Below are positions 27,730 through 61,655 of a DNA stretch of 64,000 bases, in pieces. How positions within the stretch are numbered: position 1 is the stretch's first letter; each line of letters begins with the position of its first letter. The translations under genes and the position numbers were made by a program. The notes beneath the pieces were generated by a model, which worked only from the letters and a program-made list of their open reading frames with translations, searched no databases and was not told where the DNA came from. The stretch comes from Candidatus Woesearchaeota archaeon (GTDB lineage: Archaea > Nanobdellota > Nanobdellia > Woesearchaeales > JABGUJ01): NCBI GenBank assembly GCA_018646625.1, contig JABGUJ010000001.1, positions 441,534 to 505,533 of the forward strand. The letters are read 5' to 3'.

Positions 27730-27755
27730 ATCTAATCACTTTACTTAAGATAAAA

Positions 27756-27873
27756 GGCGGTGCAGGGATTTGAACCCTGGAATCACCGGGATCTACTATT
27801 CATCGGAAAATGAGACTTCCTCATCATCCCGTTGTTTGCAGCCGATTGCCTTACCAGACTTGGCCACACCGCC
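27756..27873 (-). tRNA. tRNA-Cys (GCA) with a 45-nt intron
   Basis: Acceptor stem GGCGGTG/CACCGCC, D arm, anticodon loop CTGCAA-C with anticodon GCA, variable loop GATTC and T arm CAGGG-TTCAAAT-CCCTG are all present once an intron is removed. The base after the acceptor stem is T, the U73 discriminator expected of tRNA-Cys. Exons are 27873-27836 and 27790-27756. The anticodon stem is ATCGG/CCGGT with one G-U pair. Confidence 0.88.
27791..27835 (-). other. Archaeal tRNA intron with bulge-helix-bulge motif
   Basis: The intron is inserted at the canonical 37/38 position. CTGC of the anticodon loop pairs with GTAG near the intron 3' end to form the 4-bp central helix. The flanking 3-nt bulges AA|A and AT|C hold the cleavage sites. 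The inside can form GATGAG/CTCATT. The tRNA-splicing endonuclease should remove it. Confidence 0.8.
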
Positions 27874-59630: not shown

Positions 59631-60575
59631 TTACTTCTTAGCTGCCTCCTTTTTTACTGGCTTTTTTTTTGCAGCTTTTTTCTTTTTCTTCTCTTCTGCC
59701 TTCTTCTTCTTTTCTTCCAAAGCTTGTTTTTTTACTACCTTTCTGTCTACTTTCTCTACAACAACTTCGTCAGTAAAAAGTTTTTCAGCATCTAATTTCT
59801 TGATGCTATCTTCAGTATAAAGTGTAAGTCTTCCTACGGCAGCTCCAGGAGCTAAAAGTTCCGCATTAACTTCATTAACTTTAACAACTTCTACACCAGG
59901 AATATTAATTCCAGATTTAAGCAAAGGACAGTCTTTTGAAACTACAAGAAGAGGACCTTTCTTAGTTATGTATTTTCTTCCTCTTAACTTACCTTTTCCT
60001 GCTCTTATCTTTTTTTCACTTGTTCTTTCAATCTCATCTTTCAAACCAAGCTTCTCCAATGATTGGATTACGTCTTTAGTCTTTGAAAGAGATTCAAAAG
60101 AGTTATCAAGTACGAATGGGAAATCTTTAGGAACTTTATGACCTCTTTCTTCTACTGCTTCTTTGATTACAGTAGCAGCCAGTGCGCTCCTTATTGCTTT
60201 TCTTCTTTCTTTAATGTTAATTTTCTTGTCCCAAATCTTTTCTGCTTTAGGTGCGTGAGCTCTTCTTCCACCAACTGTACCAGGAGCAATTGCGCCAGTC
60301 CAGTTCATTTGAGTTCCTCGCCTAGTCATAACTTTTCTAGGGACTCTGGATATACCTTTACCGTAGCAGCCTCTGTATTTTCTTCTTCTTTTAGATACAT
60401 TAGCACTATGTCTCATACCTGCTTCAGGATCTGCACCATATGCCTGCCTCTTGTGACTTTGTATTGCCTCTACTGCCCTCTTTACTAAATCGGGTCTAAC
60501 AGGTTCTACAAATTGAGCAGGCAGCTCAATGCTTCCCTTTTGCACGTTTGCTTGGGTATGTATGTTTAATTTCAT
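59631..60575 (-). CDS. rpl4: Large ribosomal subunit protein uL4 with Lys-rich tail
   Basis: 314 residues, longer than most because of a Lys/Glu/Ala tail (about 270-314). RRKYRGCYGKGISRVPRKVM, GGRRAHAPKAEKIWDKKIN and IKEAVEERGHKVPKDFP fit archaeal uL4. The gap before it holds the box C/D-like element. A run of seven T residues precedes the start on the plus strand (A-run in the mRNA). Confidence 0.93.
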   Translation of the reverse strand: MKLNIHTQANVQKGSIELPAQFVEPVRPDLVKRAVEAIQSHKRQAYGADPEAGMRHSANVSKRRRKYRGCYGKGISRVPRKVMTRRGTQMNWTGAIAPGTVGGRRAHAPKAEKIWDKKINIKERRKAIRSALAATVIKEAVEERGHKVPKDFPFVLDNSFESLSKTKDVIQSLEKLGLKDEIERTSEKKIRAGKGKLRGRKYITKKGPLLVVSKDCPLLKSGINIPGVEVVKVNEVNAELLAPGAAVGRLTLYTEDSIKKLDAEKLFTDEVVVEKVDRKVVKKQALEEKKKKAEEKKKKKAAKKKPVKKEAAKK

Positions 60576-60597: not shown

Positions 60598-60650
60598 TCA
60601 GCAGTTACTCCTTCTCATCAGTTGTTCAGCCGGGAATAACTTCATCATCA
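60598..60650 (-). ncRNA. Box C/D sRNA-like element between uL3 and uL4
   Basis: Read on the minus strand: box C TGATGA (60647-60642), 12-nt guide (60641-60630), box D' CTGA (60629-60626), 5-nt spacer, box C' TGATGA (60620-60615), 13-nt guide (60614-60602) and box D CTGA (60601-60598). Order, spacing and guide length match archaeal 2'-O-methylation guide RNAs. Box C follows the uL3 stop codon without a gap, so the RNA would be cut from, or overlap, the ribosomal-protein mRNA. Rule-based targets are a G in CCGGGAATAACT and a U in CAGTTACTCC; I could not place them in rRNA. Confidence 0.65.
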
Positions 60651-61655
60651 GCGTGATTTTACTCTGTTACCTTGCTTTGATGCAAGACTTATTTCTTGTA
60701 TTGTTGGTGCTTCTGTTGGGACTTTTGCATTTGGCCTTATTGCTTTAACCAATCTTACAATTCTTTTCTTCGATCCGCCAACAGATCCTTTTACGAGGAT
60801 GAATGGATTTTTAACTTCTCCATATCTTAAGAAGCCACCTCTAGGAGTAACTTCTTTTCCTTCTTCACCAATCTTCATTAACCATTTGTTATATTCAACA
60901 CGAGTATGAAATCCAGTCTGACCTGCGTGTGCAACTCTATACATAACGTGGCCTTGACCTTTCCAAGGACCCAAACTTCCTGGGTTTCTCTTAGCTTTCT
61001 CTTTTTTTCTGCCTTGAACAGTAATTCCAAATCTCTTTACAGGACCTTGGAATCCTTTTCCAATTGTTACAGCGTGAATGTCAATTTGTTCTCCTTCTTT
61101 GAAAACATCTTTAACAGAAACTTCCTTACCTAAATTGTCTTTAGCATAAGCAAACTGTTCTGCGACATTTCCACCAAGTCCCAATTCAAACAGTTCTGGT
61201 TTTTTACTTCCAATACCTGTTAGCTTTGGTTGCGTATATGCAAGAACTCTAATTTCGGTATAATCTTCAGGTTTGATCTCAGTTATTTTTTTCTCATCAA
61301 CCTTTTTGGGCATGATAGTTTTTCTTTCAAGTTCTTTATCCCATTTAGGTGCATTAATTTGAGTTTTCAACTTAAGACCGTAAATTGATTTTTTGTAGAA
61401 TTTGATTGCTGCGATTTTGATTGGAGGACATTCGATAACGGTTACTGGAGAAGCGATGTCATCTCCTTTTGTTGTAGATGCCTTTCGATTATCTGTGTAT
61501 ACAACGTGAGTCATACCGGCTTTAAACCCTGCAAAGCCTAATAGAGATGGTTCTTTGCCTTCGGGCCAAGATCTAACTCTAGGACATATCTTCTTAGCTC
61601 TCTTTCGAGGCCAGAATTGCATGGATCCTTTCCTTGGTTGACCAGTTTTTCCCAT
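60648..61655 (-). CDS. rpl3: Large ribosomal subunit protein uL3
   Basis: 335 residues. RKGSMQFWPRKRAKKICPRV, GFAGFKAGMTHVVYTDNR and GKGFQGPVKRFGITVQGRKK are archaeal uL3. It is the first gene of the operon in this window. It has a long leader and no strong ribosome binding site. Its stop codon abuts the box C of the sRNA-like element. Confidence 0.95.
   Translation of the reverse strand: MGKTGQPRKGSMQFWPRKRAKKICPRVRSWPEGKEPSLLGFAGFKAGMTHVVYTDNRKASTTKGDDIASPVTVIECPPIKIAAIKFYKKSIYGLKLKTQINAPKWDKELERKTIMPKKVDEKKITEIKPEDYTEIRVLAYTQPKLTGIGSKKPELFELGLGGNVAEQFAYAKDNLGKEVSVKDVFKEGEQIDIHAVTIGKGFQGPVKRFGITVQGRKKEKAKRNPGSLGPWKGQGHVMYRVAHAGQTGFHTRVEYNKWLMKIGEEGKEVTPRGGFLRYGEVKNPFILVKGSVGGSKKRIVRLVKAIRPNAKVPTEAPTIQEISLASKQGNRVKSR

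Follow-up and report, generated by a model that had tools for sequence, protein, structure and literature searches.

The gap between the genes for ribosomal proteins uL3 and uL4 in the 64,000-nt stretch of DNA analysed here (the window), which comes from a Woesearchaeota-type (DPANN) archaeon, very probably holds the gene of a double-guide archaeal C/D box sRNA, derived from the ribosomal-protein operon, that would guide methylation of 23S rRNA at G2446 (E. coli numbering). We base this reading on the boxes, on complementarity to the genome's own rRNA, on conservation, on covariation of a stem and on the presence of fibrillarin and Nop5; transcription, processing and methylation are deduced from these. 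On the minus strand, the element runs (A)TGATGA - AGTTATTCCCGG - CTGA - ACAAC - TGATGA - GAAGGAGTAACTG - CTGA (Table 1). Boxes C (RUGAUGA), D', C' and D (CUGA) are thus present in the order found in archaeal C/D box sRNAs, with guides within 10–13 nt. The sequence-only reading had described four exact boxes, guides of 12 and 13 nt and a 5-nt spacer on the operon strand, and the boxes, the lengths and the strand were all confirmed. It had also placed the first box directly after the uL3 stop codon, which proved correct: the stop TGA (60650-60648, minus strand) abuts TGATGA and shares its last base with box C as the R of RTGATGA. The sequence TGATGATGA is readable in two registers, and we take box C to be the second TGATGA, right after the stop, because homologues fix the register. 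Beyond uL3 and uL4, the operon contains uL23, uL2, uS19 and uL22.

Table 1. Features of the C/D box sRNA locus and its flanking genes (window positions).
Feature	Position	Strand	Basis or remark
Box C, ATGATGA	60642..60648	-	Sequence; begins with the A that ends the uL3 stop TGA
D' guide AGTTATTCCCGG, 12 nt	60630..60641	-	Pairs with 23S CCGGGGAUAAC; predicted N+5 is G2446 (E. coli numbering)
Box D', CTGA	60626..60629	-	Sequence
D'-C' spacer ACAAC, 5 nt	60621..60625	-	Sequence
Box C', TGATGA	60615..60620	-	Sequence
D guide GAAGGAGTAACTG, 13 nt	60602..60614	-	Pairs 9/9 with 23S AGUUACUCC; predicted N+5 is U2438 (E. coli numbering)
Box D, CTGA	60598..60601	-	Sequence
External k-turn stem, two-pair remnant U60650-A60597 and C60651-G60596	60596..60651	-	Stem covariation in 25 homologues
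uL3 (ribosomal protein L3) gene	60648..61655	-	Pfam PF00297, 1.3e-77; box C and the stem extend into its stop codon
uL4 (ribosomal protein L4) gene	59631..60575	-	Pfam PF00573, 2.2e-37; ATG at 60575, 22 nt after box D

Could an ordinary spacer have come to carry TGATGA and CTGA motifs next to a TGA stop by chance? TGA stop codons already provide part of a box. Against chance, the four-box pattern never appeared when the window was simulated 300 times with an order-2 Markov model, and the 1.57-Mb genome contains a single exact C-D'-C' match, namely the sRNA locus; a reversed control pattern likewise has one match. The fold of the element alone is unremarkable in stability (z = -0.47), which fits a C/D sRNA.

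The sequence-only reading had proposed searching the genome's rRNA for complements of the two guides, and its single 23S gene provided them, with a sensible nucleotide at the N+5 position. This 23S rRNA contains AAGUUACUCCGGGGAUAACA, which covers both guide sites. The D' guide forms 11 bp with CCGGGGAUAAC (10 Watson-Crick and one G-U), and the D guide pairs at 9 of 9 positions with AGUUACUCC, immediately upstream of the D' site, the two sites sharing two bases. The predicted N+5 of the D' guide falls on the second G of GGGAUAAC and that of the D guide on the second U of AGUUACUCC, corresponding to G2446 in the peptidyl-transferase region and to U2438, eight nucleotides upstream. The annotated E. 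coli 23S gene used here falls one base short of the standard 2904-nt numbering and gave values one lower, which were corrected accordingly. Assuming a constant offset of 369 between E. coli and yeast 25S numbering (Um2921 = U2552), G2446 would be Gm2815 of yeast, so the predicted N+5 of the D' guide is the own-23S equivalent of yeast G2815, an snR38-type target. When guide pairs were shuffled, only 1 in 2000 (0.05%) reached both matches within 30 nt, which argues further against a chance arrangement, even though 16% of shuffles reach the D match by itself, which is thus not rare, compared with 1.8% for the D' match alone. Neither the partly assembled 16S gene, as far as its fragment extends, nor the window's two tRNAs offered a target better than the 23S site.

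The 22-nt block from box C through the first guide to D' was found with at most three mismatches in 40 of the 353 genomes of the order, as against two for the reversed control, and the majority of these matches run on into C', the second guide and D. A covariance model built from 25 homologues matched 75 of the 353 genomes; phylum-wide, it matched 51 of 371, nine of them outside the order. Beside boxes C and D, 82% of the cells of the external stem are paired in the 25 homologues, as opposed to 33–51% in slid controls, and all five pairs show changes on both sides. Covariation of this kind speaks for selection acting on the structure of the RNA; of this k-turn stem, the window copy retains only two pairs. 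The sequence-only reading had named conservation of the boxes in relatives as a check; boxes and guide are kept in relatives, and in other families they occupy the same place between uL3 and uL4. The reading by chance arrangement is thus already contradicted by conservation and covariation, and we give it practically no weight. Second, weaker matches to the model were also seen elsewhere in four genomes (G018:C1:428192-428255, G062:C18:50254-50318, G048:C70:149198-149266 and G265:C33:13704-13774); these loci are possibly paralogous guides.

The two guides differ in how they are kept: among homologues, the D' guide is well conserved and the D guide much less so. In five further genomes, the D' guide fits the genome's own 23S at the same N+5 nucleotide with 9–11 bp. 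The D guide fits fully only in G107 among these five; in G048 and G259, it retains 7 contiguous bp at the same 23S site, and in G018 and G276 no convincing match was found there. A search for an alternative rRNA target of the D guide in G048, G259 and G018 returned nothing convincing. Because the D' guide fits the 23S of five relatives and the D guide fits fully in one, we regard the predicted assignment of the D' guide to G2446 as firm and that of the D guide to U2438 as likely for the window genome and less general across homologues.

Is methylation the main task of these guides? The 23S target strand (L001:3072-3089) is nearly self-complementary: its halves GUUA.UCC/GGGGAUAAC can pair with each other, and the two guides are therefore mutually complementary. 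By binding adjacent sites on both halves of this strand, the sRNA might act mainly as a folding chaperone that blocks a local hairpin, with methylation being secondary, and such a role has been discussed for double guides (PMC7994747). We consider this unlikely: taken by itself, the 23S hairpin has little stability (-1.0 kcal/mol), the D' guide is the only one well conserved among homologues, and the N+5 nucleotide is a known methylated site in eukaryotes. In yeast, snR38 directs the formation of Gm2815 to about 95% (PMC5199042); the corresponding nucleotides are Gm4362 in humans and Gm2805 in plants (PMC8817022).

How would the sRNA be made? Most archaeal C/D sRNAs have no promoter of their own, and their box motifs are all that processing out of a longer transcript requires (PMC7994747). 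By eye, no obvious archaeal promoter was found for the sRNA; a scan for bacterial-type promoters, which does not cover archaeal ones, also found none. The sRNA would thus most likely be transcribed within the mRNA of the ribosomal-protein operon and processed out of it. The genome encodes fibrillarin and Nop5 as single, adjacent genes. The D' guide would then direct 2'-O-methylation at 23S G2446, beside the catalytic centre, and the D guide would probably direct modification of U2438 or help to keep the 23S strand open during folding.

The overlap with the end of uL3 is no special device: 25% of archaeal C/D sRNAs overlap a gene 3' end including the stop codon, nearly half of these in box C (PMC7994747). 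An sRNA meeting a gene end with the stop in box C is thus an ordinary and already documented archaeal arrangement. In four families (the window genome, G048, G018 and G107), the uL3 stop either lies inside box C or precedes it by no more than 4 nt, and excision would therefore probably remove it, so that each sRNA made from an mRNA would cost that mRNA. In G020, 3 nt separate the stop from the first TGATGA, and in G276 the distance is 115 nt. Together, these make at least six families with the sRNA in the uL3-uL4 gap, G020 carrying a divergent copy (L083:978-1039) with an off-consensus D' guide, GTAATCCCCGT.

Such a placement raises the possibility that a genuine sRNA also controls the output of uL3 and uL4, through its excision or through binding of L7Ae to its k-turn, and so couples rRNA modification to ribosomal protein synthesis. 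The probable removal of the uL3 stop and the retention of the sRNA in this gap by at least six families speak for such coupling, as does work on Sulfolobus, where translation is repressed when L7Ae binds k-turns of mRNAs (PMC5539422). However, among the carriers of the order that were checked (a check that left out about 25 weaker covariance-model matches), most have the sRNA elsewhere, with uL3 and uL4 not near and with varying neighbours, and a variable location lends coupling no support. In many families uL3 and uL4 leave no gap between them, and in many carriers the two genes overlap; a few families have a gap that lacks boxes. In addition, 3'-overlapping sRNAs were reportedly neutral or slightly negative for a reporter (Tripp 2017, as reviewed in PMC7994747), and placement in a highly expressed transcript would account for the position without any regulation. 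Coupling therefore appears improbable to us, and we retain the reading of an ordinary guide RNA derived from the operon.

The history of the position can be read in two ways. G011, the sister in the uL3 tree, and G049, with the highest uL3 identity, were the nearest relatives looked at; both lack a gap between uL3 and uL4 as well as any match to the covariance model, which counts against the guide-RNA reading. A quick uL3 tree of low support leaves the six carriers ungrouped, with six changes, at least three of them forced. Either the sRNA would have sat in the uL3-uL4 gap ancestrally, with frequent losses, or it would have arrived there repeatedly. A search of viral contigs with uL3 found no relative.

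At gathering thresholds, Rfam recognises only two tRNAs in the window, the sRNA scoring below every family, and it finds nothing at six homologous loci. One window tRNA gene contains an intron (27755-27873, minus strand; Rfam 49 bits) and was missed by ARAGORN; the intron carries ATGATGA and GATGA motifs resembling C boxes. Below threshold, nearly all matches of the sRNA are to C/D families, including sR1 (E = 1.6e-4), snoPyro_CD (0.003) and snoR38 (0.17). With archaeal C/D box sRNAs such as sR1 (RF01152) and snoPyro_CD (RF00095), the window sRNA shares the four boxes, guides of 12–13 nt, the short D'-C' spacer, double guiding to nearby rRNA sites and overlap with a gene 3' end with the stop at box C. 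It differs from these two in its guides and, in this lineage, in its location inside the uL3-uL4 operon.

The likeness to the eukaryotic snR38/snoR38 RNAs (RF00213) lies in the guide, which aligns with the snoR38 D' guide and sits in the D' slot with a AGUUAUCCC core before D', and in the predicted N+5 target nucleotide; the eukaryotic RNAs are longer. As a candidate member of RF00213, the window sRNA scored 21.5 bits against a gathering score of 45 bits and was rejected. C/D sRNAs with the same D' guide were also seen in Methanothermococcus (L116:3593-3657, L121:3198-3262, L118:5160-5219 and L128:1698-1769). The two that were scored reached 38.3 and 36.4 bits against RF00213, below the 45-bit gathering score, and for one of them snoR38 had the top score and the lowest E-value of all Rfam matches. 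A comparative study places snR38 in the last eukaryotic ancestor and finds few eukaryotic guides with archaeal counterparts, snR38 not being among those named (PMC3511168). At 21.5 bits, common descent with snR38 is a possibility; as the target is universal, convergence on it has to be weighed seriously against common descent. G2446 may already be on record as a target in some archaeon (target tables of Dennis 2015, PMC4644070).

A scan of 257 Gb returned single matches in Pyrolobus, Marsarchaeota and Hodarchaeota, which is near the chance level, estimated at about one match, and we place no weight on them. The Hodarchaeota contig (L133:2421-2498) has the same block from box C through the guide to D', a D box and an external stem, with a hairpin GTTGG...CCAAC replacing the short D'-C' spacer; this match could be due to chance.

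A further parallel is with snoRNAs in the introns of eukaryotic ribosomal-protein genes, which likewise place a guide of rRNA modification within a ribosomal-protein transcript, and whose location moves between host genes over evolution (PMC3511168). Unlike these, the window sRNA is flanked by two reading frames of one operon and involves neither intron nor splicing. Its position is an example of guide genes riding on highly expressed transcripts, and we find the target more interesting than the genomic location. The literature searched yielded no papers on C/D sRNAs of Woesearchaeota and relatives, and our analysis adds for them a well-supported guide RNA with a precise predicted methylation site. 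Because a guide predicted to target the snR38 nucleotide is widespread in archaea, deep conservation can now be tested against convergence.
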